45,965 bases of DNA from a virus. The stretch's first letter is position 1, and every line of letters begins with the position of its first letter. A model generated the notes under the pieces. That model was not told the origin of the DNA. It saw only the letters and a list, made by a program, of their open reading frames with translations, and searched no databases. Made by a program: the position numbers and the translations under genes. This document shows positions 6,326 to 25,585 of this stretch, in pieces. The DNA lies in the IMG/VR virus record IMGVR_UViG_3300006875_000038, positions 1 through 45,965 of that record. One strand, 5' to 3'.

Positions 6326-6331
6326 TAAAAT
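6326..6331 (+). promoter_or_regulatory. -10-like hexamer for a leaderless glycosyltransferase mRNA
   Basis: The hexamer TAAAAT ends six bases before the ATG at 6338, and no Shine-Dalgarno site precedes that ATG. This is the spacing expected when transcription starts at the A of the start codon. No clear -35 box is visible. The 58-base gap 6280-6337 must hold promoters for both divergent genes. Confidence 0.4.
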
Positions 6332-6337
6332 ATTGAC

Positions 6338-8990: not shown

Positions 8991-9947
8991 TCATATCTCA
9001 GTTTCTTGAAACCACTTGATCATTCTTTCTAGTCCGTCGCTAAGAGAGACAGTTGGTTTCCATCCGTACAGTTCTTGAATCAGCGAAATGTCCGGGCATC
9101 GCTGCAGTGGATCTCCCTCCCGCTCGAGCGGAAGATCTTCGAACACTATTTGACTATTAGAATTTGTCAAATCAACAATAAGTTCTGCTAGGTCTAGCAC
9201 GGTACATTCCTGCGGGTTGCCGACATTGACGGGACCCGTTGCCATATTTCCGTCAAGAACAGCTGCAAGTCCAAGCACCTCGTCAGAGACATGACAAAAA
9301 CTTCGTGTCTGCTTCCCGTCACCAAAGACGGTTATCGGTTCATTTCTGAGAGCTTGAGATATAAACGTGTTGACGACGCGCCCGTCGTCTGGTCGCATTC
9401 TTTCGCCATATGTATTGAAAATTCTAACAATACGAATATCCAATTCATTTACACGATGATACGCCATTGTCAATGCTTCGCTAAACCGCTTTGCCTCATC
9501 ATAGCAACTTCGCGGGCCAATTGAACTTACGTTTCCAAAATATGATTCAGATTGTGGATGCACTAGCGGATCACCGTACACTTCACTTGTTGACGCTAGA
9601 AAAAATCTTGCGTTCTGCTTGGCAGCTAGATCTAAAAGATTTCTTGTTCCGATAGATCCAACGGCAAGAATTTCAAGTGGCAACGTTAAAAAATCTAGTG
9701 GAGACGCCGGACTAGCAAGGTCGAGCACCGTATCATACCAGTCATCAGCAATTTCTGGCGGCAACGGATCAACAATATCGTGCTGAACAAATCTAAATCT
9801 TGGATCTTTCTTAGCATGAGAAATATTGCTGTATCTGCCAGTGACCAAATTATCTACAACTGTAACGCTGTCCCCTCGAGACAGAAACAGATCAACCAAA
9901 TGTGATCCTATAAATCCGCTTCCACCAGCTACAAGATGATGAGTCAT
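8991..9947 (-). CDS. UDP-glucuronate decarboxylase (UDP-xylose synthase)
   Basis: The product has 318 residues from the ATG at 9947, whose ATGA overlaps the stop of the UDP-glucose dehydrogenase gene. A longer frame upstream lies inside that gene and is rejected. It is an extended short-chain dehydrogenase: NAD-binding GGSGFIGS at 8-15, acidic VVDNL at 30-34, STSEVYGD with the catalytic Thr/Ser and the Glu typical of UXS near 119-126, PRSCYDEAKR with catalytic Tyr149 and Lys153. The phrase GPRSCYDE-x-KR is characteristic of UDP-xylose synthases rather than 4-epimerases. The reaction is UDP-glucuronate to UDP-xylose and CO2. Coupling to the preceding gene makes substrate supply immediate. Confidence 0.82.
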   Translation of the reverse strand: MTHHLVAGGSGFIGSHLVDLFLSRGDSVTVVDNLVTGRYSNISHAKKDPRFRFVQHDIVDPLPPEIADDWYDTVLDLASPASPLDFLTLPLEILAVGSIGTRNLLDLAAKQNARFFLASTSEVYGDPLVHPQSESYFGNVSSIGPRSCYDEAKRFSEALTMAYHRVNELDIRIVRIFNTYGERMRPDDGRVVNTFISQALRNEPITVFGDGKQTRSFCHVSDEVLGLAAVLDGNMATGPVNVGNPQECTVLDLAELIVDLTNSNSQIVFEDLPLEREGDPLQRCPDISLIQELYGWKPTVSLSDGLERMIKWFQETEI

Positions 9948-11230
9948 TGATGTCCAATCGCAGAATACATAACTCCTGAACCTACCCAAAGATTTTTATC
10001 AAGAATATTTCGCGCATCAAAAACAACGGGGACTGACATTTCACTAGCTACGATCGACGGATCAATGTCACTAAATTCTTGCCATTCTGTCAACACCGCT
10101 AGAACATGAGCGTTCTTTATTGCTGAAACTGCTGTATCTGCAATTTGCAGATTTTCTAGATTTGCTTGATGATTTTTGCGTACCGTCGGATCATACGCTA
10201 CTATTTTGACTCCACGTTGAACTAGATTCTCAATAATTGACAACGCTGGAGAATCTCTAAGGTCGTCAGTTCCAGCTTTAAACGTCAATCCCCACACTGC
10301 AACAATCTTTTCAGTGACTCGAGAATCAATCATTGACAAAATTTTTTGCGCGATTCTCTCAAACTGGTGGTTGTTTGTCTCTATCGCACTATGCAAAAGA
10401 TCAAACGAACAATCAAGTTTTTTAGACATATGCAAAAGCGCTCGAGTATCTTTTGGAAAGCACGAACCGCCCCAGCCTGGACCTGCCTTCAGAAACTGCG
10501 AGCCTATGCGCCCGTCCAAACCCATACCAAATGAAACATCATCTATGTTGCATCCAGCATTTTCGCACATTTCAGCTACTGAATTTATAAAACTGAGTTT
10601 TACAGCTAAAAATGCATTTGATGCGTATTTGATCAATTCAGCTGATTGAGGATCAGTGACTAGAATCTTTTTTGGAGATATTTTTGAATAGAGATCCGCA
10701 ACAGTGTCTGCGGCAATAAAGTCATCACAGCCAACAACCACTCGATCAGGGTTAAAAAAGTCTGATACTGCTGAACCTTCACGTAAAAATTCTGGATTAC
10801 TAACAACAGCAACGTCCGGTCTGTTCAATGCATTTGACACGAGAACGGTTGAACCAACTGGAACTGTTGACTTGTTTACAACAATTGAATTTGGCGGAAG
10901 ATACTTTGAAATCTGCTTTGCCGCATCTAAAACATAGTTTAAGTTTGCTGATCCATCGTCATTCTGCGGAGTAGGCACGCATAGAAAAGCAACATCGCAA
11001 AACTTAACAGCATTTTCAGAACCGAGAATAAACTTTAGATTCCCATTTGAAATTCCAGATGCAACAAGATCGGCAAGTCCGTCTTCTACTATTGGAATTT
11101 TTCCACTATTGAGTTTATCTATCTTTTCTTGATCAATGTCTGCGCAGATCACATCATGACCTAGACTAGCAAAACACGCGCCTGTAGTGAGTCCGACGTA
11201 TCCTGTGCCAATGATTGCGATATTAGCCAT
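9944..11230 (-). CDS. ugd: UDP-glucose 6-dehydrogenase
   Basis: This 428-residue enzyme is full length for the family. It shows the N-terminal NAD site IAIIGTGYVGLTTG (4-17), VNKSTVPVGST (118-128), the central helix ELIKYASNAFLAVKLSF with Lys201 and Asn205, the active-site GPGWGGSCFPKDT with Cys257, and a C-terminal Rossmann domain (VAVWGLTFKAGTDDLRDSP). It oxidises UDP-glucose to UDP-glucuronate with two NAD+, in the cytosol. It starts three bases after the DNA methyltransferase stop and overlaps the UDP-xylose synthase start by four bases (ATGA). The sequential enzymes sharing one overlap strongly support a UDP-xylose pathway carried by the phage. Confidence 0.93.
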   Translation of the reverse strand: MANIAIIGTGYVGLTTGACFASLGHDVICADIDQEKIDKLNSGKIPIVEDGLADLVASGISNGNLKFILGSENAVKFCDVAFLCVPTPQNDDGSANLNYVLDAAKQISKYLPPNSIVVNKSTVPVGSTVLVSNALNRPDVAVVSNPEFLREGSAVSDFFNPDRVVVGCDDFIAADTVADLYSKISPKKILVTDPQSAELIKYASNAFLAVKLSFINSVAEMCENAGCNIDDVSFGMGLDGRIGSQFLKAGPGWGGSCFPKDTRALLHMSKKLDCSFDLLHSAIETNNHQFERIAQKILSMIDSRVTEKIVAVWGLTFKAGTDDLRDSPALSIIENLVQRGVKIVAYDPTVRKNHQANLENLQIADTAVSAIKNAHVLAVLTEWQEFSDIDPSIVASEMSVPVVFDARNILDKNLWVGSGVMYSAIGHQ

Positions 11231-11233
11231 TGA

Positions 11234-12481
11234 TTAGTTTTTCTTGTAGTATGTTTTTTGGACGAATTGACGACTGAATCCCTTATCTGTGTCAAGAAGG
11301 TACTCTCGGTCGCCAATTTTTTGGCCAGAATCACCCAAAGGCTGGCCGTCCAACGCTGACACGACGGCTTTACCGATCCATGACGCTGCTTGAAGGGCGA
11401 CGGCTTTGCCCCATGTACTTGCTAGAGGTGAATATGTTTTTACTTCTTCAAACTTCCAATTGTCAGGAAGACCTTGTATTCTTGCAGCTTCGCGATGAGT
11501 TATTCTTCGTGGAAGTGTCGGGTGAATGACGTGGTCAAGTGCTCCGCCGGTCATTACGTTGCAGTGCGAATCTCTGTTCCAACGATACCCTGTTGAAAAT
11601 CCTAGATAGTAGTCTCTTGAACGAACCTTTTGTTCTTGTGACAGCCATGATTGCGGAAATTTATTTCCGTTCTTTTCAACAGCAGCCTTTAACGCATCGC
11701 CGAGTCCCACATTTGGCTTCCATCCGTCATTTCCAAGAATGTCAAAAATATCTTGAACACGACGCATTTCCATGTTTTCTTTTACCATGTGTCCGTCAAT
11801 AAGTCCGTCTGAATTTCTAAGACTTTGCACCCACTTCGACGGAGCAATCTGTCCGTATCTTTGGCTGCCCCAAGTAACACTCAAGTCCTCGAGATCTCCA
11901 ATAATGTCTGTGATCTTTGGAAGATCATCAACTGGGTCAACGTGTACTCCAAATGGTAGACCACTCTCAATTGCGACCCAAAAATACCGCGGACGGAACG
12001 AAAATCCACCGACTTGAAGATTATTATGCTTTACGTGGTATAGATCATATTTTTTATCAGAAAGTTCTTCAAGCATTGATCTATATTGAAGCATTACCTC
12101 GCGACCCTGCGTATACGCCTGCTGGACGCACTCAAAGACAACAACTCTAGGACGAACTTTAGCGGCGTATCTCATGAACGCCCTCGTGTGCTCGTGTGCC
12201 GCTGATTCTGGTCCGCGGTTTGCCGGTCCAGACCATACAGACCATCCCGAACACGGAGGACACCCGACAACCGCGTCCGTGCGCGGCGTTGGCCAGTCAC
12301 TTGGTTCATTGCTAAAATCAGCAGACCAATTGTCGCCAAGAAGATGTCTGTTTACTTCAGCAACAGCATTTCCAAAATTTAAAGTTCCAGTTCGCAGCTT
12401 CATCTGCATTCCGGACTGAACGAATCCGAGGCTCATAAATCCAGCCAAGCCGTTACAGTCTATAAAACTATGATCAGTCAT
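11234..12481 (-). CDS. DNA (cytosine-5) methyltransferase
   Basis: The 415-residue protein has motif I FIDCNGLAGFMSLGF (6-20), motif IV GCPPCSGWS with catalytic Cys77, an ECV triplet at 117-119 where motif VI is normally ENV, a motif VIII-like SFRPRYFWVAI, and motif IX/X RITHREAARIQGLPDNW followed by GKAVALQAA. The target-recognition region between motifs VIII and IX is long (about residues 180-310). It transfers a methyl group from SAM to C5 of cytosine. The role is probably self-protection from restriction. The Asn to Cys change in motif VI is unusual. No partner endonuclease is visible, so this is a solitary methyltransferase. The ATG has no Shine-Dalgarno site. Confidence 0.87.
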   Translation of the reverse strand: MTDHSFIDCNGLAGFMSLGFVQSGMQMKLRTGTLNFGNAVAEVNRHLLGDNWSADFSNEPSDWPTPRTDAVVGCPPCSGWSVWSGPANRGPESAAHEHTRAFMRYAAKVRPRVVVFECVQQAYTQGREVMLQYRSMLEELSDKKYDLYHVKHNNLQVGGFSFRPRYFWVAIESGLPFGVHVDPVDDLPKITDIIGDLEDLSVTWGSQRYGQIAPSKWVQSLRNSDGLIDGHMVKENMEMRRVQDIFDILGNDGWKPNVGLGDALKAAVEKNGNKFPQSWLSQEQKVRSRDYYLGFSTGYRWNRDSHCNVMTGGALDHVIHPTLPRRITHREAARIQGLPDNWKFEEVKTYSPLASTWGKAVALQAASWIGKAVVSALDGQPLGDSGQKIGDREYLLDTDKGFSRQFVQKTYYKKN

Positions 12482-12488
12482 AGTACAA

Positions 12489-12494
12489 ATTGTA
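12489..12494 (-). promoter_or_regulatory. -10-like hexamer for a leaderless methyltransferase mRNA
   Basis: On the minus strand TACAAT is followed by seven bases and then the ATG of the cytosine methyltransferase, with no ribosome site. This suggests an internal promoter giving a leaderless transcript for the methyltransferase, UGD, UXS and downstream genes. Confidence 0.4.
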
Positions 12495-12501
12495 GCATGG
12501 A

Positions 12502-12816
12502 TTATCTATTTTCCGTTGCCGAATTGTTTGTATTTTCGAGCAGTCCAACTTCATATCCGCACGCTGCATAACCGGCAATATCAGTCCACGTATCAGGTTG
12601 AAATCCAGCTCCAGACGCAAACCTGGCTAACTTAACCGCAATCATTGCCATGGCAACATCTTCTCTAGAAAACTTACGTGAAAAAATTACTGACCAAAGC
12701 GTAGCGATTCTGTCAAAATTATCTTCCGGACCGCCGTATTGAGTGTCGCGTTGACCAGAAATAATCGTTGCAGCGTCAACTAGCATCTGTTCTCTTGGTG
12801 ATCGTTTTTGCTTCAT
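12502..12816 (-). CDS. DUF6378-type phage protein
   Basis: This 104-residue protein carries the pattern AATIISGQRDTQYGGPEDNFDRIA (residues 16-39), then VAMAMIAVKLARFASG and DTWTDIAGYAACG. This arrangement (G-x-R-x-x-Y-G-x-P-E-D-N-F, then K-x-x-R, then D-I-A-G-Y) is typical of DUF6378, common in phages and sometimes thought to relate to nucleotide pyrophosphohydrolases; its function is not established. The start overlaps the upstream stop by four bases (ATGA). Confidence 0.8.
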   Translation of the reverse strand: MKQKRSPREQMLVDAATIISGQRDTQYGGPEDNFDRIATLWSVIFSRKFSREDVAMAMIAVKLARFASGAGFQPDTWTDIAGYAACGYEVGLLENTNNSATENR

Positions 12817-13049
12817 TTAATTACATCATCAACATCAAATTGGGCACGAGAAACATATGTGACGTGATACTTTTTCTGCTTTTTATCATTTTCTAGTTCT
12901 TCACTTGCCTCTTTAACAACAGTAATCTCAGCGTCTCTTGGAAACTCAGCAAGTTTATCATCTAAAAATACGCGCCACTCGTTTATCAAAAGATTCATTG
13001 CTTCTTTAAATGTTGCGCCAGACGCTTCAAATTTGACAGTTGCTCTCAT
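12813..13049 (-). CDS. Small hypothetical protein
   Basis: This 78-residue protein starts two bases after the upstream stop and ends in an ATGA overlap with the DUF6378 gene, so it sits firmly in the operon. It has a charged middle (EASEELENDKKQKKYHV) and an N-terminal segment that could be a strand then helix (VKFEASGATFKEAMNLLINEW). No family is recognised. Confidence 0.6.
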   Translation of the reverse strand: MRATVKFEASGATFKEAMNLLINEWRVFLDDKLAEFPRDAEITVVKEASEELENDKKQKKYHVTYVSRAQFDVDDVIK

Positions 13050-13051
13050 GT

Positions 13052-13429
13052 CTATTTACGCCATTTCTCTTGATTTACCTCGATGATGATGTAGCTGGAA
13101 TCAGCAACATCTGAATTTAAAGTTTTCATGTGTCCGTTTTTACTCATCAAAACCCCGTGAAGTCCAGAAATCTCACATGTTCTAGCAGAAATTTCCTCGT
13201 ATTTGTAAACTATTTCGTGCATTTCAATAAACCGCGGTGACTTTGTCTCAAAGTAAAACCTAAGAGTTCCAAATTTTTCTTTAATCTGTGTAATTTGGTA
13301 TTCTGGGTCGATAAGAGCAAGTTCGGCATCAAGATCTTTGATTATTCCGTACCATCCGCTGCTGCAGGAAATTTCTGCAGGCCATCCACGAGCAAACCGA
13401 TCTAATATTTTCTGCATCTCTGTGCTCAT
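13052..13429 (-). CDS. Conserved hypothetical phage protein
   Basis: The 125-residue protein contains GWYGIIKDLDAELALIDPEY followed by ITQIKEKFGTLRFYFE, a combination I know from small hypothetical proteins of actinophages and other phages. A later ARTCEISGLHG has one cysteine where many relatives have a CxxCG pair, so any metal site may be lost here. The function is unknown. The start overlaps the upstream stop by four bases. Confidence 0.6.
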   Translation of the reverse strand: MSTEMQKILDRFARGWPAEISCSSGWYGIIKDLDAELALIDPEYQITQIKEKFGTLRFYFETKSPRFIEMHEIVYKYEEISARTCEISGLHGVLMSKNGHMKTLNSDVADSSYIIIEVNQEKWRK

Positions 13430-13683
13430 ATTTCGGCAATTTTCTTCTCTAACCGATACGCCGCGTGACGCGCCGCCGCGATATACGGCAATTTCATGTC
13501 AATACTTGAAACTATGACATCTCCGTTGACAATATCAACGACACGCACAAGTCGACCATTGTGTATTCTACCTGCGGATGTTTTATACGCGTCGTGCCTC
13601 ACGCGGAGAACATCGCCCTCTACTACTAAAAGATCAGAAGCGTTGCACCATAGCGCACTGCTCATAAGTTCCTCGAAGGACAT
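13426..13683 (-). CDS. Small hypothetical protein
   Basis: This 85-residue protein is predicted to be mainly beta strand in the middle (LLVVEGDVLRVRHD, then GRLVRVVDIVNGDVIVSSI), possibly a small barrel, with a C-terminal basic helix (AARHAAYRLEKKIAEI). Its start lies 22 bases inside the upstream MazG-like gene. No family is recognised. Confidence 0.55.
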   Translation of the reverse strand: MSFEELMSSALWCNASDLLVVEGDVLRVRHDAYKTSAGRIHNGRLVRVVDIVNGDVIVSSIDMKLPYIAAARHAAYRLEKKIAEI

Positions 13684-14129
13684 TCTTGCTCACGACAAAC
13701 CGACACGTCGTAGTCGTCAAGAGCTCTACTGCATAGTTTGCACTTTGTATTTGATGATAAAACTTTGTAGCCTATGCGTTGTCTCTTAGCATTTAGCTCC
13801 ATCTTTGATACGTATTCGCGATCAAGTTCAGCGTCTGTTGCACCTGCTGCGCACAGTATGTTGGCAACAAAATGGAGAACATCAACGCATTCCTTTATGA
13901 TTTCGTGGCGATCAGCATACGGTTTGTCATGCTGCCAAGGCTTCCAAGAAATCGCCTTACGCACTTCAGCCAGTTCATCGTCAATCGCTAACATGTTCCA
14001 TCTAAGATACTCAATAAGAGATCGAATATCATCGGGGGAGTCGCTGTGAAATACGGAGTAGTCAACTCCGTACACATTTTGTTGTAATTCTTTAGTCTTG
14101 TTTAGCCATTCTTTAAACAGGATGCTCAT
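13662..14129 (-). CDS. MazG/dUTPase-like all-alpha nucleotide pyrophosphohydrolase with C-terminal Cys motif
   Basis: This 155-residue protein has the acidic helix pair of all-alpha NTP pyrophosphatases: IDDELAEVRKAISWKPW (about 49-65) supplies E-x-x-E and IIKECVDVLHFVANILCAAG (about 78-97) supplies E-x-x-D, followed by the EYVSKMELNAKRQRIGY tail common in phage dUTPase/MazG-like proteins. These enzymes hydrolyse dUTP, dCTP or other NTPs to monophosphates using Mg2+. A C-terminal CKLC...CREQEC set may bind zinc. In a phage with possibly modified cytosine, a dCTP/dUTP pyrophosphatase would help exclude normal bases; substrate choice cannot be read from sequence. Confidence 0.72.
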   Translation of the reverse strand: MSILFKEWLNKTKELQQNVYGVDYSVFHSDSPDDIRSLIEYLRWNMLAIDDELAEVRKAISWKPWQHDKPYADRHEIIKECVDVLHFVANILCAAGATDAELDREYVSKMELNAKRQRIGYKVLSSNTKCKLCSRALDDYDVSVCREQECPSRNL

Positions 14130-15148
14130 TTTACTTCCATAATCGTGTTTAGATGTTCCGTTATTTGATCTATACTATGCAAAACGTCAATATAAGATCG
14201 TTTTTGAGCAATTGAAAGTTCAAAAAGATCAATTGGCGACATTTCTTCTACTGCCCCAGCCAGATAGTTCCACGATTCCCCAAGAGATTTGGTAAATCTC
14301 CAATCAGTAACTACAACAGTTCCGGAGTTTAATGCTTGCGAATACCTTGGAGACCACCATGTCACGCCGTCATTGTGCGGTCCAATAATAATTCCAATAC
14401 GTCTTGTAAGTTGATCCATGATTTTTCTACATGAATTTGTTTTCATGTCTTTTGTTTCAATGAATCTTGCACTTAAAGTATTGACAGTATTTTTTGTCCA
14501 CTTAGATGACAAATTCTCAATGATCCACGAGTGATCATGCTTACCTGTCGGAAGATTTACATGATCGTCAATGTACACTGAATCAATCTGTATTGGAATA
14601 AATGAAGATCTAATACCATCAGGAACTCCAAAAAGTTGATTTGTCGACCACGGAAGTGTTGGATATACCATCCTAGTAGAACTTAAACTTGACACAAGTT
14701 CTATCCCACGAAAGATGTTATTTCTAACTTTTATGTCATCTTTGGCAGTTGAATAGCCAAACCGTTTAGAGTAAAAAGTCTTAAATAAAACATTTTCATC
14801 CTTCTCGATCGCTCTCAGAGCGCCGTAAATTTTCCATGGCTCAGGGGTATCTAGAAACAGTGTAACCCCGCGTCTACCGTTGCACACGCCAGCTAAGTTC
14901 AACGAATGATATGCACCGTTCGCCGAGACGCTCGTTGGAGCGCCTATCCCGATAAAAATATGACTAAACTGACTTAAATCTTTTTCCGTCAAATCAAATG
15001 TAGGTGCAGCAATAACAACCTCGTACTTCAGTCTAGTCAAAATCTGAATTAAACCATCCGTAAATGAAGCTGTACGTTTGATAGTTTTTTCAGAATACTG
15101 ATTTGCAAAAGTTCCAGTAACAAGAACTTTACGAGTCATAGAGTTCAT
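14126..15148 (-). CDS. Glycosyltransferase-like protein, paralogue 2 (GT-B-type, putative)
   Basis: This 340-residue protein resembles its neighbour at 15145-16185 along its length. Shared features are an N-terminal KVLVTG strand, a mid-domain strand pair HIFIGIG...GVTLFLDTPEPW, a PWST boundary, and a C-terminal WWSPRYSQALNSGTVVVTDW then LGESW segment followed by QKRSYID. The order (Rossmann-like half, hinge, then a half ending in an aromatic-rich motif that often contacts the nucleotide sugar) is that of GT-B glycosyltransferases. No precise family is recognised. In a phage with UDP-sugar synthesis and an apparent dCMP hydroxymethylase, a DNA glycosyltransferase is a reasonable hypothesis. 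Starts at 15148 and 15139 are both possible; 15148 makes an ATGA overlap. Confidence 0.55.
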   Translation of the reverse strand: MNSMTRKVLVTGTFANQYSEKTIKRTASFTDGLIQILTRLKYEVVIAAPTFDLTEKDLSQFSHIFIGIGAPTSVSANGAYHSLNLAGVCNGRRGVTLFLDTPEPWKIYGALRAIEKDENVLFKTFYSKRFGYSTAKDDIKVRNNIFRGIELVSSLSSTRMVYPTLPWSTNQLFGVPDGIRSSFIPIQIDSVYIDDHVNLPTGKHDHSWIIENLSSKWTKNTVNTLSARFIETKDMKTNSCRKIMDQLTRRIGIIIGPHNDGVTWWSPRYSQALNSGTVVVTDWRFTKSLGESWNYLAGAVEEMSPIDLFELSIAQKRSYIDVLHSIDQITEHLNTIMEVK

Positions 15149-16185
15149 TGACGCGCTTCTGCTATCGCGCGATGGACGGCGTTCATGATAGTGTCAATGA
15201 CCTGCTCTTTTGGAGTTTCTTTAGAGTAAAAAACATCCCGCTGCGCGTCGGCAAGTTCACGAAGCTGACTTGTAGTCATTGATTCAATTTCACTAGGGTT
15301 CTTCAGATACGACTCGCCTAGTTCTGAAACTTCAAGTGGATCCGCAAGCAGAATAGAACGCGTCCGTACAGCGTGGATAAACCTGTTTCTCCACCAACCA
15401 CTCCCAGCGTGTGGATATTTTGCAGCAAGAACTCCCCACGAATTTGCGTATACGTCGCACAGTTCTACTTCACTTAGAACTTTTTCAGCTTTGGTTCGCT
15501 TTGTTCCGATGTAGTGGACGTTCCAGTTGAGGCCGAGCTTGTCTAGCCATTTTGTTTGATCCGACAGAGTTCCAAGAACCCATGCCCGTTCTCTATCGCT
15601 ATCGTCTGGAATACTTGTGTTGTAGTCCTGAGCAAACGCGCTAACATCAGCCCAAATCCACTCTCTCGAATTCAGGCCCTTAACAACACTCAGTCCAGTT
15701 CCCCATGAAAACTTTGGAACAATTGTTGCCGGCCACGGACGTGTGTTGAGCGCATCAATTACAGGATAGATCCTGTCAATATTTGCTGTAGCCCAATCGT
15801 GGTTTTTTCTACATCCGACGGCAGAATCGCGAACGACTCTCGTTGGAACTTTGTGAAAAGTCTTAAGACCTGACACTATGTTGTGTGTCTGCCAATCATC
15901 AAGAAAGAACATGAGTCCGACGTTCGACTTTTTGGCTCGGCCGATTGCATCCAGTGCGCCATACAAGTACGAAGCACCTAGTGTAGCTGGACTGACCTGA
16001 CCGCAAAGCAAGAGATCGTATCCAGTCAAATCTTCATTTGGTAGTACCCGTCTGTGGTCAACTTCGCAGCCTCCGAGACGGAGTATGTCTGCATACATGT
16101 CAGTTACGGCGCCGTACTTTACGTGCGTGCGTGTTGATCCTATGTGCTGCGCGGTGTATCCTGTTAGCAAAACTTTAATAGACAT
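15145..16185 (-). CDS. Glycosyltransferase-like protein, paralogue 1 (GT-B-type, putative)
   Basis: The product has 346 residues from the ATG at 16185, five bases after GGAG; the frame runs further upstream but without a better site. The layout matches the adjacent paralogue: SIKVLLTGYTAQHIG, then DLLLCGQVSP and VGLMFFLDDWQ, a PKFSWGTG hinge, RERAWVLGTLSD at the start of the second half, then GSGWWRNRFIHAVRTRSILL and SELGESYLKNP. The second half (strand, GTLSDQ, later a WW-x-x-R segment and an ESY loop) looks like the nucleotide-sugar-binding half of GT-B enzymes. The acceptor is unknown; the gene opens the run that also makes UDP-glucuronate and UDP-xylose and a DNA methyltransferase. Divergence of the pair suggests two different steps or specificities. 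Confidence 0.55.
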   Translation of the reverse strand: MSIKVLLTGYTAQHIGSTRTHVKYGAVTDMYADILRLGGCEVDHRRVLPNEDLTGYDLLLCGQVSPATLGASYLYGALDAIGRAKKSNVGLMFFLDDWQTHNIVSGLKTFHKVPTRVVRDSAVGCRKNHDWATANIDRIYPVIDALNTRPWPATIVPKFSWGTGLSVVKGLNSREWIWADVSAFAQDYNTSIPDDSDRERAWVLGTLSDQTKWLDKLGLNWNVHYIGTKRTKAEKVLSEVELCDVYANSWGVLAAKYPHAGSGWWRNRFIHAVRTRSILLADPLEVSELGESYLKNPSEIESMTTSQLRELADAQRDVFYSKETPKEQVIDTIMNAVHRAIAEARQ

Positions 16186-16214
16186 CAGTGCTCCATGCGT
16201 GTAGTTGTTGATGC

Positions 16215-16250
16215 AAAGCAGGTAGGCAGCGATAGCCACCTACCTGCTTT
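16215..16250 (-). terminator. Strong intergenic stem-loop, possible terminator or RNA-processing element
   Basis: A perfect 12-base inverted repeat (aaagcaggtagg / cctacctgcttt) with a 12-base loop lies in the 84-base gap between the SSB-like gene and the glycosyltransferase-like gene. On the minus strand the second arm ends CTTT, followed by GCATC, so the U-tract is short. It could attenuate rather than fully stop transcription, separating the replication module from the modification module. Confidence 0.5.
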
Positions 16251-16269
16251 ACAACTAAATCTTTAGGTC

Positions 16270-16779
16270 TCAGAACGGCGACTCTGGCGGAGTATCGGAG
16301 AGCGCAGGCGCAGGCGCAGGCGCAGGCGCAGGCGCAGGCGCAGGCGCAGGCGCAGGCGCAGGCGCAGCCTGAGCGTTTACCGAGTAGTACGACTTGATCT
16401 CGTTCTTCTTCTGACCCTGCCAAACGCGGCTGCCGACCTGCGCACGGAACTGGCGTCCCTTAAGAGTCTGCTCGATTACCGCGTTGGTTGGATTGGTCGC
16501 AAAGAACTCACGGCCGAGACCCAGAGCGTTCATCTTCCTGAAGAAAATACCGAGCGCCGTCGGGTTGTCAGTTGACACGACAAGGTTATCCCAGACGAGT
16601 CTCTTTGCGTAGGCACCGGTCAAAACCTGTGCCTTGACGGAAAACATCGTCTTGCCTGTCTGCGTCTGCTTCGCTGTTGCTTCAACGATCGAAAGATCGT
16701 AGTCGCCGTCGGGCAGCGGATCGTAGCTGCCTGAATCACCGGCTTCATTGATCAGATCGCCCCAGTTTAGTGTGCTCAT
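16270..16779 (-). CDS. DUF669-type single-stranded DNA-binding-like protein with (Ala-Pro)n linker
   Basis: The 169-residue protein has a globular N-terminal domain (about 1-135) of the DUF669 type: a strand YDPLPDGDYDLSIVEA, then KTMFSVKAQVLTG and FRKMNALGLG, then RQFRAQVGSRVW. The C-terminus is an alternating Ala-Pro linker of about 22 residues and a short tip SDTPPESPF. An acidic tip ending Pro-Phe is the hallmark of bacterial SSB, where it recruits partners. DUF669 proteins often sit with Sak4-like recombinases, as here, and are thought to act as phage SSBs. The linker is encoded by a perfect hexanucleotide tandem repeat. Confidence 0.75.
   Translation of the reverse strand: MSTLNWGDLINEAGDSGSYDPLPDGDYDLSIVEATAKQTQTGKTMFSVKAQVLTGAYAKRLVWDNLVVSTDNPTALGIFFRKMNALGLGREFFATNPTNAVIEQTLKGRQFRAQVGSRVWQGQKKNEIKSYYSVNAQAAPAPAPAPAPAPAPAPAPAPALSDTPPESPF
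16302..16367 (-). repeat. Eleven tandem copies of a hexanucleotide encoding Ala-Pro
   Basis: The plus-strand unit gcgcag occurs eleven times in direct succession without a mismatch. Because each unit is six bases, slippage would lengthen or shorten the Ala-Pro linker of the SSB-like protein by whole dipeptides without breaking the frame. Confidence 0.95.
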
Positions 16780-16800
16780 TTGTTGTGTCTTTCTGTGTTG

Positions 16801-20323: not shown

Positions 20324-20403
20324 CTACTACCTCTTTAAGTTCAAGATGACTATACCATATACTAAGACAAAATGTGACAGACGCACATAAAAATTCTCAG
20401 TAT

Positions 20404-20868
20404 TTACTGCAGAAGACGCGTTGGAGTCCATCCAGTTTTTGCCAACCTAAGAAGACCATGACGAATCGCATCAAGTGCGTGACCCTCCCCGCCGGAATGC
20501 CAATATCCGAGTTTCTTTAACGCGTCATTTGGAAACATTCGTTTTGCGTCTGCAGGCGTCTGCATTATGATTGACTCTGGGTCAATCCCGTTTGACAGCA
20601 GTAGATATCTATAGATACCGATCTGTTCGAGACTGTACGGTGACTGAGAATTTTTAATCGTCTGCGCATTGATTGTAAATCTCTCGCAGACAGCCTCAAA
20701 AATGGCATCGGTTTTCTGCGCCATAACTATCGCGGAGATTATTGAAGAGTGATATTCACGCATTAAATACTCTCCAGAATGCATGAGTTCTGGTTCATCT
20801 CCGCAAAATCTGAATATCGCTATTCCACTTTTCTTTCCAGGGTCTACGGAAAGTATGATTCTGTTCAT
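20404..20868 (-). CDS. RuvC-like Holliday junction resolvase
   Basis: The product has 154 residues from the ATG at 20868, which makes an ATGA overlap with the upstream deaminase gene; 16 codons of open frame upstream lie inside that gene. The RNase H-fold acidic residues are visible: D in ILSVDPGKKSGIA, E in DAIFEAVCERF, and D in GEGHALDAIRHGLL near the C-terminus, the order seen in RuvC. It would cut four-way junctions or branched concatemers before packaging, with two metal ions. The position at the end of the replication run fits. Confidence 0.82.
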   Translation of the reverse strand: MNRIILSVDPGKKSGIAIFRFCGDEPELMHSGEYLMREYHSSIISAIVMAQKTDAIFEAVCERFTINAQTIKNSQSPYSLEQIGIYRYLLLSNGIDPESIIMQTPADAKRMFPNDALKKLGYWHSGGEGHALDAIRHGLLRLAKTGWTPTRLLQ

Positions 20869-21191
20869 GTCCACACGACCTTTGCAACTCCAGAACGTGC
20901 GAGCATACTTTCGCACTTTTTACATGGCTTAGACGACACAGGGGTTCCGTCAGCGCTGATTCTCGCGACATACACGTGCGACCCAGATGCTTGTGTTCCA
21001 GCGGCGATAATTGCTCCAAACTCCGCATGAATATGCGAGGTTCTCCATGCAATGCTTGGATCTCCAATTTTTTTGTTTGTTGCCATGGAAATGATGCGCC
21101 CATTTTTTACGACAACGCATCCGTGACGATGCCTGCACTTACTTTTTGCGGCAAGTTCAATAGCTTTTCCAATGTACTTATTTCTACGCAT
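20865..21191 (-). CDS. Small cytidine/deoxycytidylate deaminase-fold protein
   Basis: The 108-residue protein has the zinc site of the family: HIHAEFGAI (H-A-E, catalytic Glu) and KPCKKCESM (P-C-x-x-C), preceded by RHGCVVVKNGRIIS. It is shorter than dCMP deaminases and lacks their extra N-terminal segment, so free cytidine, deoxycytidine or a tRNA/DNA base are possible substrates. It lies between DNA polymerase (TAATG overlap) and the resolvase (ATGA overlap). A second, larger deaminase occurs at 22986-23489. Confidence 0.78.
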   Translation of the reverse strand: MRRNKYIGKAIELAAKSKCRHRHGCVVVKNGRIISMATNKKIGDPSIAWRTSHIHAEFGAIIAAGTQASGSHVYVARISADGTPVSSKPCKKCESMLARSGVAKVVWT

Positions 21192-23014
21192 TAATACTTG
21201 TCACCCCATGTCTCTAGCGGACCGTCAATTCCCGCAGTAAGCGGGACAGCCCATCCGTCACTTGTTGTCATGCAATCTTTTACGATACGCATAATTTCTT
21301 CTGCGTCTTTTCTTGGAGCTTGAAGAACAATTTCGTCGTGAACTGGTACGATCAAAAGCTCTGTCAAATCTGCTTGATCAAGTTTGACAAGGTTCGCTTT
21401 AAAAACCTCGGCAGCGCCACCTTGAATTAGGTAATTGACAAGAGTATACGTTCTGTTTTCGTCGCACGGAAGACGTCTTCCAGTCCAAGTAAACACGTAT
21501 CCTTGACCTTCATTCCTGAGTCTTCTAGTTCCGATGTCTTCAATTTGTCGCTGAAAATGGGCCATACCAGGAAAACGACTGTCAAACGCGTCAGAAACTT
21601 GTTTCATTTGCGACTCGTGAACTCCAGCTGTTAGCGCTTGTTTAGCCACTCCAGCACCGTACAGTCTCCCATAAACCATACTTTTGATCAGTCCTCTACG
21701 TTTATCTGACTTTGCCATCGATGGATCGCGGTAGACTTCACGGCCTATTTCCGTGAAAGGATCGGATCCCGTAGCGTCAGCCAAATTAAACAGCGAGATC
21801 AAGTTGGCGTCCTGTGAAAGACTAGCAAACATTCTAAACTCGACTTGATCAAGGTCAGACGTAATAATCACATGATCTTCATCCTTTGGAATGAACGCAC
21901 GGCGAACAGTTGAATCACCCTTTGGCAGTGTCTGCAGCGCAGGGTTAGTAATTGACATACGACTAGTTCTGGCGCCAAGAGTCTTTACAGACGGATGAAC
22001 GACTCCATCAATTGATTCAGTAAGAAAGTTGCTAAAGTATGTATTTGCAAGCTTGTCAGCCTTGCGCTGTTTTAGCACAACATCGGCAAGTGTTCTAACG
22101 TCACTATTACCGTCGCGCAAAAGAATTTTCAATTGATCTTTGGTGCATGACTTCTGTCCAGTAGGAGTAAACTCTGTAATCTCAGCACCAAGTTGTTCAA
22201 AGAGTTTTACAAGCTGAATGTTACTTGTTATCGAAACGTTTCCGTATTTTTGACGTATCCATGATCGGACAGAATCAGTGTACTGCGTCAGTTCATCGTA
22301 TTTCTTTTTTGAATACTCGAGATCTACACGAGCGCCGTTTAGTTCCATTCTTGTGACAATACGACGAGTAGCCATTTCAAGTTCATATGCTTTACTATAC
22401 GGACCGTTCGGACCGCACTTATCATAAAACATTTCCCACAATTTAGTGGTAAGAACGCAGTCGAGAGCACCGTACGCCCAGTACGGTTCAAAATTTGTAG
22501 GGACAGTTCCCCATGTCCATCCATTTTTTGCAAGTTCAACATCAAGAGTTTCTTGCAAAGCAACAGCCCTACTGTCGACATGAAGCGCTGCCAAACGTTT
22601 TAGAGCGCCAGATCCAAGAGGATCCACAACGTGCGCCATAATCATGGTGTCATGCGCGCGGTGCCACGGAATTTTCCATCTTGACTGAATATCAAACCAT
22701 CTTGCCTCAAATGCAATGTTATGGCAAATGATTTTTCCGTCAAACTTGTCCATTGCTTCGTAGAAAACTCCAGACCATTCTTGCCATGGAATTGACCAAC
22801 CTTGCTCGCCGTCTCCGATCTGCACGAGACGTAGCCTGCCATGCCACGGAGAAAGCGCATGTTCACGTGGATTGCCTGGAAGTTCTCCTGTTTCCGTGTC
22901 AACCGCGATCGCGTTATGTGGACGTCGCTGACTCAACCAATCAATAAATTCAGCTGCTTTGCTGACGTTATCTACGAGGTGAAGTTTAGTGTTCGAAAGA
23001 TCCGTTGCTGTCAT
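21191..23014 (-). CDS. polA: DNA polymerase I, family A (3'-5' exonuclease plus polymerase)
   Basis: The 607-residue enzyme lacks a 5'-nuclease domain. The exonuclease shows AVDTETGEL (D39, E41), HNIAFEARWFD (about 98-108) and YWAYGALDCVLT (D185). The polymerase shows motif A SDLDQVEFRMFASLS (about 386-400), the O-helix KRRGLIKSMVYGRLYG (R440, K444, Y448, Y452) and motif C VPVHDEIVL. The residue aligned with E. coli Phe762 is Tyr448, as in T7 polymerase. The start has AAGG eight bases upstream and lies 29 bases inside the preceding dCMP deaminase frame. This is the replicative polymerase; no DnaB-type helicase or primase is in the window. Confidence 0.95.
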   Translation of the reverse strand: MTATDLSNTKLHLVDNVSKAAEFIDWLSQRRPHNAIAVDTETGELPGNPREHALSPWHGRLRLVQIGDGEQGWSIPWQEWSGVFYEAMDKFDGKIICHNIAFEARWFDIQSRWKIPWHRAHDTMIMAHVVDPLGSGALKRLAALHVDSRAVALQETLDVELAKNGWTWGTVPTNFEPYWAYGALDCVLTTKLWEMFYDKCGPNGPYSKAYELEMATRRIVTRMELNGARVDLEYSKKKYDELTQYTDSVRSWIRQKYGNVSITSNIQLVKLFEQLGAEITEFTPTGQKSCTKDQLKILLRDGNSDVRTLADVVLKQRKADKLANTYFSNFLTESIDGVVHPSVKTLGARTSRMSITNPALQTLPKGDSTVRRAFIPKDEDHVIITSDLDQVEFRMFASLSQDANLISLFNLADATGSDPFTEIGREVYRDPSMAKSDKRRGLIKSMVYGRLYGAGVAKQALTAGVHESQMKQVSDAFDSRFPGMAHFQRQIEDIGTRRLRNEGQGYVFTWTGRRLPCDENRTYTLVNYLIQGGAAEVFKANLVKLDQADLTELLIVPVHDEIVLQAPRKDAEEIMRIVKDCMTTSDGWAVPLTAGIDGPLETWGDKY

Positions 23015-23489
23015 CGTCGTTGCCTTCTATAATTGTCAGTTCAATATTGCATGTTTGCAAATATTTAAAAACGAGCTCTGGCCGTCTATGCACATCATCA
23101 GGTCTAACCTTACAGACAACACGCGCCAATCCAGAATTTGAAATAAGTTTTGCACACTGCATACAAGGCGCACTTGTGACATAGATCGTGCCGCCTAAAA
23201 CACTTGAACGATCAGTATACAACAGAGCATTCGCCTCAGCGTGAATCGCTGGACACTGATCGTACAAATTGTCTAGCGGTGCCGTCCCCTGCGCACGTTC
23301 GCACCAGTCAACGCACCATCCTTGAAAAGGCCAATCTGCCGCTGGACCATTGTATCCAGTTGCACAGATATGCTGCCCAGACGAGACAACTACAGCGCCT
23401 AACTGGGCTCTAGTACACCTCGAGCGTTTAGCAATTGTCTCAGCAACGGCGAGCCAAGTTTTGTCCCACGAAGGCCTGTCATTAGTCAT
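22986..23489 (-). CDS. dCMP deaminase
   Basis: The product has 167 residues from the ATG at 23489 (one of several consecutive ATG codons; the longer frame to 23540 starts deep in the upstream gene). The zinc/catalytic signature is AIHAEANAL and APCMQCAKLISNSG; the GYNG loop in ICATGYNGPAADWP and an additional Cys pair (WCVDWC) are seen in T4-type dCMP deaminases, which bind a second zinc and are regulated by dCTP/dTTP. It converts dCMP to dUMP, feeding thymidylate synthesis. The start overlaps the upstream acidic protein by eight bases. In a phage that modifies dCMP, this enzyme would compete for the same pool. Confidence 0.9.
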   Translation of the reverse strand: MTNDRPSWDKTWLAVAETIAKRSRCTRAQLGAVVVSSGQHICATGYNGPAADWPFQGWCVDWCERAQGTAPLDNLYDQCPAIHAEANALLYTDRSSVLGGTIYVTSAPCMQCAKLISNSGLARVVCKVRPDDVHRRPELVFKYLQTCNIELTIIEGNDDDSNGSFEH

Positions 23490-23688
23490 CATCATCCATG
23501 TCCGAGTCAATATCATATTCTTCGTCGTCTGACGCGTCACTTAGTCCCATTATCAGCATTTTTGCTACAAGTTCAAGAGCGTCTCGCCTTGTAAAGCCAG
23601 CACGACGAAGCGTTACATACATCTCATGCATACTTATCGCCGCTTCTTCCATGGGCGACTTAAAATCAAAAGTTTCATCGTCGCCCAC
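23482..23688 (-). CDS. Small acidic hypothetical protein
   Basis: I place the start at the GTG at 23688, eleven bases after the thymidylate-synthase-family gene stop and with AAAGG seven bases upstream, giving 68 residues. An ATG at 23748 would overlap the upstream gene by 49 bases. The protein has a helical core (EAAISMHEMYVTLRRAGFTR, DALELVAKMLIMGL) and a highly acidic C-terminal tail (about twelve Asp/Glu in the last 17 residues). Acidic tails can mimic DNA or contact polymerase partners; its function is unknown. Confidence 0.6.
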   Translation of the reverse strand: MGDDETFDFKSPMEEAAISMHEMYVTLRRAGFTRRDALELVAKMLIMGLSDASDDEEYDIDSDMDDDD

Positions 23689-23699
23689 GGCTTGACCTT

Positions 23700-24551
23700 T
23701 CAGTGCTTGTTTTTGTAGATAGCTTGAATCATCGCGTCCGCATACCATTTTTCGTTTTCTTCAAGAAAATCGTATGATCGCGGAGATTCAACGGCACTTA
23801 ATACGCGAGCTGCCGATGACGCAATACTATCCCATGAATTTCCGACAATAGTCGGCATTGCTCGCTGTATCGTCGCGTATTTCAAGTTTTCAGCTGCTGA
23901 AAAATTTGTCTCATAGATATGAAGAGAACCGACATGGTGCGCGTACATTCCTGGTTCAATTCCAAGAACGCTAGCCATTGCGATCTGGACACGAGTAAAC
24001 TGAAAAAAATCGTATGCCGAGCCAAGCCAGACATCATTTGAGCGCATGTATACGCTCATGTTTAGCTTGTTGTTACGAATCTTGAATTGATGCATCACAG
24101 TGCATGGATAATCGCGCTTATGCGGCTTGTTGTCTTTTGATGGATCCCATATCGTGACAACAGCTTGTCTGGAATCTCTATCGTTTTTCAACTTTTCAAT
24201 AGCCGCGCCGTACTGACCTGCCGTGCGTGTTCCATACGAACCGTAGAAGTTTCCGTCGTCTTCAGCATATTTTTCAAACTGCGGTCCGACAGCGACAACT
24301 AGATTCGGAGTACTTAGCCCTGCAAGAAGCTGACATGATTCAACAGCAGCAATCCCGGTGACTACGTCGCGGCCGACACCTATCGGAAGTGTAGCAAAAA
24401 CATTATCAATGTAGATCACTGCGTCTTCAATCTCAAGCGTAGGCAGACCTCTAGGAGCTACGGGAGTTCCGTTTAGTAGTACGTGTCTAACTAGGTCAAC
24501 ATATCCGTTGACTGCATCTTTAATTTCAATAGATCTTACGGAAGTATCCAA
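23700..24551 (-). CDS. Thymidylate-synthase-family enzyme, probable dCMP hydroxymethylase
   Basis: The 283-residue protein shares the TS core: DSRQAVVTIWD (126-136), nucleophile Cys150 in DYPCTVMHQF, Arg170 in YMRSNDVWLG, and H211 in GSLHIYE. At the position of TS Asn177 (motif G-x-x-x-N), the sequence reads GSAYDFFQF, giving Asp181. In T4 dCMP hydroxymethylase and other dCMP-using relatives, Asp replaces this Asn and selects cytosine over uracil. The likely reaction is dCMP plus methylene-tetrahydrofolate to 5-hydroxymethyl-dCMP; a dCMP methylase or an unusual TS cannot be excluded. The neighbours are a nucleotide-kinase-like protein, dCMP deaminase and polymerase. It overlaps the kinase gene by 16 bases. 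Confidence 0.8.
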   Translation of the reverse strand: MDTSVRSIEIKDAVNGYVDLVRHVLLNGTPVAPRGLPTLEIEDAVIYIDNVFATLPIGVGRDVVTGIAAVESCQLLAGLSTPNLVVAVGPQFEKYAEDDGNFYGSYGTRTAGQYGAAIEKLKNDRDSRQAVVTIWDPSKDNKPHKRDYPCTVMHQFKIRNNKLNMSVYMRSNDVWLGSAYDFFQFTRVQIAMASVLGIEPGMYAHHVGSLHIYETNFSAAENLKYATIQRAMPTIVGNSWDSIASSAARVLSAVESPRSYDFLEENEKWYADAMIQAIYKNKH

Positions 24552-25531
24552 TGACTGTATCTTTCTATTTCTGCCGTTATTCTATTAGAAAATGCAGCTA
24601 TCGCCAGCCCATACTGTCCCTTATCGTGGTGGTGAAATCTGCGAACATACTGAGGATGCGGAAGTACAGCATATTCTGGAAAATGAATTCCGTTTAAGTA
24701 AATTTGCCGTTCTGCCTCTCTACCGAGCGCAACGACGGGTGGTTTTCCAAGCGTATCCCACAAGGAAAACAGTCGTTCTCCGTAGATGTCACCAGCGTTG
24801 ATGATTCCCACGGTTCTCCATATTTTTTCTGGAAGAGCGGACATCAGATACTCGCCTGAATTGCCGTCAATTGGCATGAACGGTAGGATTGTTTTTCCAG
24901 GGTTGTTTCTTCGATCGCCGACAAGAAGTACGTCTGGCTCAGGACTTCCGATGTATTCTGGAAACTGAAACAGTTTTTCAACGTCTTGCATTTTTCTCTT
25001 TGCCCTAAGAACTATGTTCTTGGCGGCTTGTTTGATCCCCTCGGCTCCGTCTGCTGGACGTATCACCGTTACTGGATCACACGTGTTTTTTTGAGCTATA
25101 CTATAAAGTTTTATGATTTGGTCAAGTTCATCAATATTGACAAAATCGTCCCCTCGGGAAATCAATCGACTTTTAATGACATCTGTTGGCTGGTCAATAA
25201 AAAATTGCGAGACGCCTCTCGAGGAGAGAAACAGTTCTACCCAGCGCCAACCAGATCTACCAAGAAGTCCAAATCCATCTTTATTAGTTGTCGGACGTTT
25301 TATCGGCGCGTAGGTAACTTCGCCCCAGTGCCATCTATCAGCGACAACATCGACTTTCTTTAAGTCAAAAAGTTCAACAGATGTCGCGTATTCGTCTAGT
25401 ACCCAGCGTCTGGTGTTGCTCTCTGGTTTGCCTTTGTGAAACCGTACCGGATCGCTATCAATTTCCTTACAGACAGCGTCGGCAAGCGAAGATTTCCCAG
25501 AACCGTCTGGCCCCTCAATCACGATAAACAT
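24536..25531 (-). CDS. Thymidylate-kinase-like protein fused to a second (possibly UDG-like) domain
   Basis: The product has 331 residues from the ATG at 25531, five bases after GGAG (a GTG two codons upstream overlaps that site). Residues 1-170 form a dNMP kinase: P-loop IEGPDGSGKSSLA, DRWHWGEVTY (DR[YW] motif) and a SRGDDFV lid. From about 180 a separate domain starts, with PDVLLVGDRRNNPGKTILPF, GIINAGD, PPVVALGREA and VLPHPQYVRRF. That order (LLVG, G-K/PF, N, V-x-ALG-x-x-A, PHP near the end) recalls the uracil-DNA glycosylase superfamily, though it is too diverged to be certain. A fusion of kinase and base-sensing domain would be unusual. It probably phosphorylates dTMP or hydroxymethyl-dCMP. 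Confidence 0.7.
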   Translation of the reverse strand: MFIVIEGPDGSGKSSLADAVCKEIDSDPVRFHKGKPESNTRRWVLDEYATSVELFDLKKVDVVADRWHWGEVTYAPIKRPTTNKDGFGLLGRSGWRWVELFLSSRGVSQFFIDQPTDVIKSRLISRGDDFVNIDELDQIIKLYSIAQKNTCDPVTVIRPADGAEGIKQAAKNIVLRAKRKMQDVEKLFQFPEYIGSPEPDVLLVGDRRNNPGKTILPFMPIDGNSGEYLMSALPEKIWRTVGIINAGDIYGERLFSLWDTLGKPPVVALGREAERQIYLNGIHFPEYAVLPHPQYVRRFHHHDKGQYGLAIAAFSNRITAEIERYSHWILP

Positions 25532-25585
25532 TATCACTCCGTCGTTTCATCATCAGTATACCATTCTTAGATACGAAGGCAGAAC

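Follow-up and report, generated by a model that had tools for sequence, protein, structure and literature searches.

Sugars on phage DNA are described for several systems, namely T4 with glucose, the RB69-like phages with arabinose, Thanatos with a deoxypentose that is putatively xylose, and SP-15 with phosphoglucuronate (PMC6024577, PMC13390438, PMC12838424, PMC5977210). Here, a gene cluster of an IMG/VR virus (record IMGVR_UViG_3300006875_000038) is compared with these systems. It is located on a fragment of 45,965 bases, which was analyzed as a whole and is called the window in the following; the host of the virus is probably an actinobacterium. The cluster is read as a T4-type phage DNA hypermodification locus with its own sugar supply, in which hydroxymethyl-deoxycytidine (hydroxymethyl-dC) would be glycosylated, probably with xylose (rough probability 0.55). 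Judged from sequence comparisons and structure models, glycosylation of hydroxymethylcytosine in the DNA is very likely, and xylose is the moderately favored sugar.

As in T4, the window encodes a member of the Asp-type dCMP hydroxymethylase family, a relative of gp56 and two GT-B glycosyltransferases, GT1 and GT2, whose models align best with the T4 beta-glucosyltransferase (BGT). In contrast, the T4 glycosyltransferases use host UDP-glucose (PMC6024577), whereas the window operon contains phage genes for a UDP-glucose 6-dehydrogenase (UGDH) and a UDP-xylose synthase (UXS). Furthermore, the window glycosyltransferases are paralogous to each other, and a C5-cytosine methyltransferase (C5-MTase)-family protein is part of the locus. 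The arabinosyl-cytosine system of RB69 and Mosigvirus shares with the window a phage pentose supply for a cytosine sugar and an enzyme of the thymidylate synthase (TS) superfamily (PMC6024577, PMC13390438); two glycosyltransferases are reported for phage NP, and in Morganella phage Rgz1 a GT2 homologue adjoins supply genes of the RB69 type. However, this supply runs through an arabinose-5-phosphate isomerase and genes of the nucleoside triphosphate (NTP)-transferase type, ORF003c of RB69 could not be aligned with the GT2 profile, and the reported acceptor is 5-hydroxy-dC (PMC13390438).

In the Shewanella phage Thanatos a pentose, according to the authors putatively xylose, is attached to cytosine, and a phage enzyme makes UDP-xylose in vitro (PMC12838424). 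Unlike the window, this phage has a UDP-xylose pyrophosphorylase (TH1_063) in place of UGDH-UXS; its sugar is described as a deoxypentose of unknown configuration, apparently O-linked at C5, and no transfer of xylose to DNA was observed in vitro (PMC12838424). Bacillus phage SP-15 also has a phage UDP-glucose dehydrogenase in a DNA hypermodification cluster with glycosyltransferases, but there the modified base is a uracil with phosphoglucuronate and glucose, and no UXS stands in the published gene table (PMC5977210).

The same gene order as in the window was found in the Gordonia phages GMA2, GodonK, Phendrix, Forza, and Sixama and in the Actinomycetia phage DSL-LC01, all six with an Asp-type TS. 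The order GT2, GT1, MazG or dUTPase, MTase, WhiB recurs in them with extra genes in between, which argues that the grouping is more than chance; GT1 of the five Gordonia phages was recognized at 20–23% identity. Unlike the window, the six phages show no UGDH-UXS in the stretches compared, the five Gordonia phages carry extra glycosyltransferases, and DSL-LC01 carries a UDP-galactopyranose mutase (UGM).

Gene content and the predicted modified base

A first-pass annotation of the window had listed a TS-family enzyme with a dCMP-selecting Asp, a dNMP-kinase-like neighbor, two paralogous glycosyltransferase-like proteins, UGDH, UXS, a MazG-like pyrophosphohydrolase and a C5-cytosine methyltransferase. 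Each of these was recovered by family, PDB or model comparison, and all are encoded on the minus strand between 8991 and 25537. The single strand is thus as described there; the supposed two adjoining runs are separated by polymerase, helicase, RecA-like, and other genes. Some of the gene names are borrowed from the DSL-LC01 annotation. The features on which the argument draws are:

8991..9947, − strand: UXS, UDP-glucuronate decarboxylase / UDP-xylose synthase by its PDB match to human UXS1; its ATG overlaps the UGDH stop (ATGA)
9944..11230, − strand: UGDH, UDP-glucose 6-dehydrogenase by Pfam and PDB match; starts 3 nt past the MTase stop
11234..12481, − strand: C5-cytosine MTase-family protein (PF00145); PPC and the catalytic Glu are present, and Lys359 stands where motif X should have Asn
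12502..12816, − strand: DUF6378 protein, present at 58 of 80 GT1 loci
13662..14129, − strand: MazG-like / dUTPase_2 family protein (PF08761), related to the T4 gp56 dCTPase-dUTPase
14126..15148, − strand: GT1, GT-B glycosyltransferase with a T4 BGT-like model and invariant Asp100
15145..16185, − strand: GT2, GT-B glycosyltransferase with a T4 BGT-like model; relatives elsewhere are linked to TET, UGM and arabinose-5-phosphate isomerase
22986..23540, − strand: dCMP deaminase by family profile matches
23700..24551, − strand: TS-family, dCMP hydroxymethylase-like enzyme with Asp181 at the position of the T4 gp42 Asp and the thymidylate synthase Asn
24536..25537, − strand: dNMP kinase-like protein, a neighbor of TS in the window as it is in GodonK, Forza, and DSL-LC01

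From 25537 toward 8991, the kinase-like, TS-family, dCMP deaminase, and DNA polymerase genes come first. They are followed by a second small deaminase gene and by RuvC-like, helicase, Cas4-like, and RecA-like genes, and the last part comprises GT2, GT1, the MazG-like gene, two small frames, DUF6378, the C5-MTase-family gene, UGDH, and UXS, for which the best start is the ATG at 9947. By coordinates and junction letters, overlaps of about 4 bases join GT2 to GT1, GT1 to MazG, and UGDH to UXS. Beyond UXS lie the genes of a DenV-like pyrimidine dimer glycosylase, of a small protein and of WhiB. No tRNA genes were found in the window.

A second IMG/VR record of the same virus, L003, agrees letter for letter with the window in two pieces, one of 8,787 and one of 7,254 bases (window 9114–25088), so that the MTase-UGDH-UXS join is present in two assembled records, although their material may be shared. 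The sole difference within this range is a length difference of about 60 bases at 16302–16367, the Ala-Pro repeat tail of the frame 16270–16779.

The TS-family protein matches PF00303 (3.6e-24), and its best PDB match is a CMP 5-hydroxymethylase (2.4e-17). In an alignment of ten sequences, the Asp at residue 181 is common to the window, DSL-LC01, GodonK, Forza, GMA2, MW202657, T4 gp42, and RB69 ORF048c, and Asn stands at the equivalent position in the dUMP hydroxymethylase gp29 of SPO1 and in a thymidylate synthase of Thanatos. Asp was also found in all eight IMG/VR loci reaching this residue (L003 included) and in five of five further records. The position is presumably that of Asn177 in E. 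coli ThyA. In the MetaGPA study, the E. coli positions 177 and 147 were the top two in separating modified from unmodified contigs (PMC8670742). The window enzyme retains the catalytic Cys and the RSND stretch (C150, R170, S171, D173), and MRSND is common to it and T4 gp42. RB69 ORF048c, which we take to be the Mosigvirus 5-hydroxy-dCMP (5-hodCMP) synthase, has MRSQN instead. These features suggest a dCMP hydroxymethylase of the T4 gp42 type with 5-hydroxymethyl-dCMP (5hm-dCMP) as predicted product.

The kinase-like neighbor matches the PHROG thymidylate kinase family (1.5e-15) and gives weak matches in Pfam and NCBIfam; for the C-terminal half of this protein (24536–25537), no family reached the thresholds that were applied. 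The MazG-like protein is related to T4 gp56, annotated as dCTPase/dUTPase (BLASTP 6e-10), and PF08761 was found in both.

The C5-MTase-family protein (PF00145, 4.6e-20) had been regarded as a complication in the first-pass annotation, since a methyltransferase needs unmodified C5 positions. This caveat has to be changed in two respects. First, the protein is no oddity of the window phage: for METHYLTRANSFERASE, a DNA_methylase match was found in 14 of 26 chosen records, all 14 of which also have a TS match, in each case of the Asp type. A fifteenth TS record is the T4-like Rgz1, and the other 11 have neither methylase nor TS. Second, the assumed product 5-methylcytosine (5mC) is itself unsafe, because motif X has Lys in place of Asn. 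Among 52 homologues (24 clusters at 95%), the PC of motif IV (PPC) is kept in all 52 and the Glu of motif VI in 51 of the 51 with the residue, whereas the Asn of motif X (GN.V), located by alignment to HaeIII, is replaced by Lys in 44 of the 45 with the residue (7 of 52 are gapped), K359 in the window. The lone exception is the distant MW202657, the alignment of which is doubtful.

We take this motif X position to be the one engineered in M.MpeI. Lys at that Asn is the change by which M.MpeI was made to accept carboxy-S-adenosylmethionine (Cx-SAM). Compared with the carboxymethyltransferase CmoX, the window protein has Lys and not the CmoX Arg, and the motif GCPPC stands against SPPC. A model of CmoA, which supplies Cx-SAM, matched none of 15 records, some of them fragments. 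The product may be methylated leftover cytosine, a carboxymethylated base, or something else, and the co-conserved Lys-bearing homologue may attach something that is not a methyl group.

Two glycosyltransferases and their relatives

GT1 and GT2 are mutually homologous, as GT2 seeds retrieve GT1 frames, and neither has a match in Pfam. Confident AlphaFold2 models were obtained, with a predicted local distance difference test (pLDDT) score of 89.6 for GT1 (26 sequences) and 88.3 for GT2 (17 sequences). The three best Foldseek matches of GT2 in the PDB are T4 BGT (1qkj, E 1.6e-8). In the VIA structural alignment BGT is the top match of both proteins, with Z 18.0, root mean square deviation (rmsd) 3.6 and 294 aligned residues for GT1, and Z 19.1, rmsd 3.9 and 299 aligned residues for GT2, in both cases over nearly the whole chain; the T4 alpha-glucosyltransferase reaches Z 15.0 and 17.2, respectively. 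For GT1, BGT is outside the best 50 Foldseek matches, yet it is ranked first by VIA among the Foldseek top 1000, and its absence from the former is no evidence.

An invariant Asp was found in both families, D100 in all 85 GT1 sequences and D97 in the 65 of 69 GT2 sequences which have the residue (the other four are gapped). D100 of BGT is placed by hhalign on D100 of GT1 and D96 of GT2, at a probability far below significance and with a GT2 register uncertain by one. T4 BGT matches the T4-Gluco-transf family (PF09198) and neither window protein does, so that the two would work like BGT and not be filed as members of its family. Likewise, there is no Pfam match to the TET-associated glycosyltransferase family TAGT, given as PF20691 in PMC13216743, nor to any other family, for the window GT1 and GT2 or for the GT2 homologues that adjoin TET in C48C1 and L127. 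RB69 ORF003c had been considered as the nearest relative of GT2 and was dropped, since its alignment with the GT2 profile was not usable.

Of the nine genes that were compared, GT1 and GT2 evolve fastest. The median pairwise identity at representative loci is 37.7% for both (55 pairs for GT1, 21 for GT2), compared to 64.7% for MazG, 61.7% for C5-MTase, 71.4% for DUF6378, 61.2% for DenV, 63.3% for TS, 86.3% for RecA, and 82.6% for PolA, with set sizes varying from gene to gene. Between the window and DSL-LC01 the identity is 37% for GT1 and 58% for GT2. Such divergence would fit a changing specificity and is no proof of it. Because both proteins evolve fast, xylose is assigned to neither of them.

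Single-protein scans with the window GT1 and GT2 retrieved only the same virus. Using tblastn, GT2 relatives were found in 58 of 50,697 phage records (E 0.01) and GT1 relatives in 13 of them (E 0.1). The GT1 profile yielded 92 confirmed relatives in IMG/VR, the best 80 of which were analyzed. At least 3.5 kb behind GT1 are available in 40 of these loci, with MazG and C5-MTase both present in 27 and neither in 13; at least 1.5 kb before GT1 are available in 63, and a GT2-like gene stands directly there in 34. Part of the GT1 family is thus without these partners. In L040 (2119–3138) the GT1 frame is interrupted by a stop codon after residue 262. An origin of the Manatee Spring records from a selection for modified DNA was considered and discarded, since the records give no sign of it.

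The neighbors of GT2 homologues differ between phages. In Rgz1 the homologue is flanked by an arabinose-5-phosphate isomerase and by a protein that shares 50% identity with RB69 ORF052c in its C-terminal part; by gene content this is an arabinose-type supply cluster. In DSL-LC01, UGM (15620–16717) lies between GT2 and GT1 in the same operon; among 47 GT1-bearing records, many of them fragments, no UGM was found. In phage C48C1 (10598–14042) the GT2 homologue stands between a Tet_JBP dioxygenase (3.3e-17) and UGM (5.6e-52). The same row was observed at 19 IMG/VR loci whose GT2 is closely related to the C48C1 protein (L121–L139). TET adjoins GT2 at 17 of them, and UGM stands on the opposite side, likewise at 17. 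Where TET is missing (two loci) the contig starts at GT2, and where UGM is missing (two loci) it stops within GT2, so no counter-example occurs among the 19. At 95%, the 17 longer loci fall into nine clusters. In all TET-bearing loci but one (16 of 17, the exception being L126), a short-chain dehydrogenase/reductase (SDR) epimerase separates TET from GT2; it is missing there in C48C1. The Tet_JBP model matches six of six C48C1-type IMG/VR records as well as C48C1 itself. The row predicts galactofuranosylated hydroxymethylpyrimidine DNA. As the whole C48C1 record has no TS and no C5-MTase match, its TET would act on a base methylated otherwise or on thymine.

A TET route was also considered for the window phage and rejected, since no Tet_JBP match was found in the window; this is a weak test, as none of 14 control genomes matches either. 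The 47 GT1-bearing records hold no Tet_JBP match above the cut-off and weak matches in four. Several weak matches are located at about 50688–57449 of record G003, the best reaching 31.5 bits against a cut-off of 34.9, so that a close relative of the window phage may have a dioxygenase. On balance, the GT2 family would act on hydroxymethylated pyrimidines in DNA, together with varying sugar genes.

The UGDH-UXS pair and the predicted sugar

The best PDB match of the window UXS is human UXS1 (8.5e-93), followed by the next SDR family at 4.6e-33, and PF01370 matches no other protein of the window. An alignment with UXS1 revealed the conserved stretches TSEVYG, CYDExKR, and TRxF, which we take to be of functional importance. 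UGDH is identified by Pfam (1.2e-61) and by a UGDH as best PDB match (4.8e-106); it has three UDPG_MGDP_dh domains and a GGSCFPKD stretch with the Cys.

A complete C5-MTase gene and at least 0.9 kb after it are present in 25 of the 80 GT1 loci. One of these is L003, which has UGDH. The remaining 24 loci form 13 clusters at an MTase identity of 95%, and no UGDH was found at their MTase/DenV junction; there, a DenV-like gene follows 49–350 bases past the MTase gene. Of 50,697 phage records, 10 have UXS at E 1e-50 or better and 12 have UGDH. One 462-kb uncultured phage record (LR756500.1) is among the matches of TS as well as those of UXS, and another IMG/VR phage contig (L120, 7417–9290) has a UGDH-UXS pair, ends inside UXS and shows no GT1 or GT2 nearby. 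Chromosomal relatives of UXS were examined as the best 80 of 587 confirmed, by a scan that favors close relatives. The first 22 are labeled actinobacterial (61–73% identity) and the later ones are mixed. UGDH lies in the flanks of 49 among these 80 relatives, 36 times at a distance of no more than about 50 bases from UXS, and the pair is thus common in bacteria. Its place directly behind the MTase gene, its absence there in relatives and its closeness to actinobacterial chromosomes among the matches listed make UGDH-UXS look like a supply cassette. It is probably a two-gene insertion of actinobacterial origin into an operon which relatives run without the pair.

The predicted route is as follows. 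The gp56-like pyrophosphohydrolase and the dCMP deaminase would deplete dCTP and dCMP. The Asp-type TS-family enzyme would supply 5-hydroxymethyl-dCMP, and the kinase-like protein would phosphorylate it, so that the phage polymerase could incorporate hydroxymethyl-dC in place of C. UGDH would convert host UDP-glucose to UDP-glucuronate and UXS would convert the latter to UDP-xylose for at least one of the glycosyltransferases. GT1 and/or GT2, acting like BGT, would then add sugar to 5-hydroxymethylcytosine (5hmC) in the DNA, perhaps two in sequence. The first-pass annotation had proposed a T4-like route ending in a pentose or uronic acid. Its hydroxymethylcytosine and DNA glycosylation parts agree with the Asp-type TS, the gp56 relative and the BGT-like models; UDP-xylose as donor is suggested by gene context, and the GT1 relatives are mostly without UGDH.

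Several findings weigh against this reading. For the fold, the best Foldseek matches of GT1 are SenB and the glycosyltransferase of phage HY126 (9iqz, an orthologue of RB69 ORF003c) and not BGT; SenB, a GT-B enzyme that does not act on DNA, follows close behind BGT in VIA (Z 16.7 for GT1, 17.2 for GT2); and hhalign gives a probability of 3–5% for a sequence-level match of GT1 and GT2 to T4 BGT. The likeness to BGT in these models is a small lead over non-DNA enzymes, and the acceptor is not indicated by the fold. The structure search, which had been suggested as a check on the two proteins, nevertheless left the proposal standing with BGT first in VIA. For the neighborhood, the GT2 homologue of MW202657 adjoins a helix-turn-helix protein and no sugar gene, that of Aeromonas phage 25 has unannotated neighbors and no sugar gene annotated nearby, and locus L018 (record G003), the GT2 of which is 80% identical to that of DSL-LC01, has no UGM match in 83 kb. 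UGDH itself was found in one of the 47 GT1-bearing records, again L003 (many are fragments), so GT1 and GT2 can work with another donor. PF01370 matches three of these records, namely the UXS of L003 and 276-aa frames in G022 and G032. Finally, an epimerase or another consumer of UDP-xylose may lie outside the window, and the glycosyltransferase at 6338–7423 could be a user of UDP-xylose.

The latter point leads to the strongest alternative, which is still unlikely: the sugar on 5hmC DNA would come from UDP-glucose of the host, or be a different host sugar, as has to be the case in relatives that lack a sugar cassette, and UGDH-UXS would serve, e.g., a virion or host-surface glycan through the glycosyltransferase at 6338–7423. 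This would agree with the occurrence of GT1, MazG, and MTase without UGDH, with six other IMG/VR contigs (L115–L120) that have UXS without GT1 or GT2 in the fetched flanks, and with the GT4-like protein (6338–7423) and the SAM-methyltransferase-like frame (5668–6339) in the window. However, the pair lies inside the modification operon, 3 nt past the MTase stop, the GT4-like gene is on the opposite (plus) strand, and DSL-LC01 has a sugar gene of its own, UGM, in the same operon. The frame 5668–6339 resembles a SAM methyltransferase by eye and has no Pfam or NCBIfam match. For 5668–7423, no homologue was found among the fetched loci below L140, few of which extend to that region.

Two further alternatives are improbable to a similar degree. 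In one, the DNA sugar would be glucuronic acid, or arabinose formed from UDP-xylose through 4-epimerization by an enzyme outside the data. Precedents are the arabinose put on cytosine by RB69-type phages (PMC6024577, PMC13390438) and the phage UGDH of SP-15 together with phosphoglucuronate on its DNA (PMC5977210), and the window is only a fragment. Against it, UXS is the sole PF01370 match in the window, and an active UXS would drain UDP-glucuronate.

In the other, the TS-family enzyme would make 5-hydroxy-dCMP, like the Mosigvirus synthase, or 5-methyl-dCMP, and the sugar would sit directly at C5-O or the glycosyltransferases would have another target. Synthases of 5-hmdCMP and 5-hodCMP and an Asp-mutant TS giving 5-methyl-dCMP are all described as activities of the TS superfamily (PMC8670742, PMC13390438). 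However, the window enzyme has MRSND like T4 gp42 and unlike the MRSQN of RB69 ORF048c. The Asp of this stretch presumably binds folate. In addition, the C48C1-type GT2 relatives adjoin TET, the product of which with a methylated base is hydroxymethyl. It is very improbable that the locus is not concerned with DNA at all, its glycosyltransferases acting on cell wall or capsule and its UDP-sugar genes being ordinary auxiliary metabolic genes: UGM is read as cell-wall related in the DSL-LC01 paper (PMC10611076) and GT-B folds are common to such enzymes, but Asp-type TS and MTase occur together in 14 of 14 records, a gp56-like phosphohydrolase is a further companion of the glycosyltransferases, and TET accompanies GT2 in a separate lineage.

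Possible exchangeable sugar cassettes in phages

The xylose route of the window can be placed in a wider, tentative reading, in which diverse phages share a BGT-like DNA glycosyltransferase family, and exchangeable supply cassettes of at most a few genes determine the sugar that it transfers. The window phage would then have xylosyl-hydroxymethylcytosine DNA and some relatives galactofuranosyl DNA. The conceivable variants would be no cassette (host sugar), UGDH-UXS (xylose, window phage), and UGM (galactofuranose, DSL-LC01). At the same tentative level, they might also include an SDR epimerase and UGM with TET making the acceptor (C48C1 type), and an arabinose-5-phosphate isomerase with an NTP-transferase (Rgz1).

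Two bases are predicted, xylosyl-hydroxymethylcytosine, to which the deoxypentose of Thanatos (putatively xylose) is nearest, and galactofuranosyl-hydroxymethylpyrimidine. Neither was found established in the papers considered here, although Lee et al. 2025 and Mahler et al. 2025, on glycosylated hydroxycytosine, may bear on their novelty. No publication title among the matches listed concerns UGM or galactofuranose in phage DNA, which is no proof of absence. If the reading is true, UGM of DSL-LC01, in print a cell-wall gene (PMC10611076), would be a DNA modification gene. The locus offers ready enzyme candidates, and its shared part occurs in cultured Gordonia phages. If true, phages would swap their DNA sugar by taking small nucleotide-sugar cassettes from bacteria, and such a swap would be a cheap escape from defenses which recognize a given DNA sugar.

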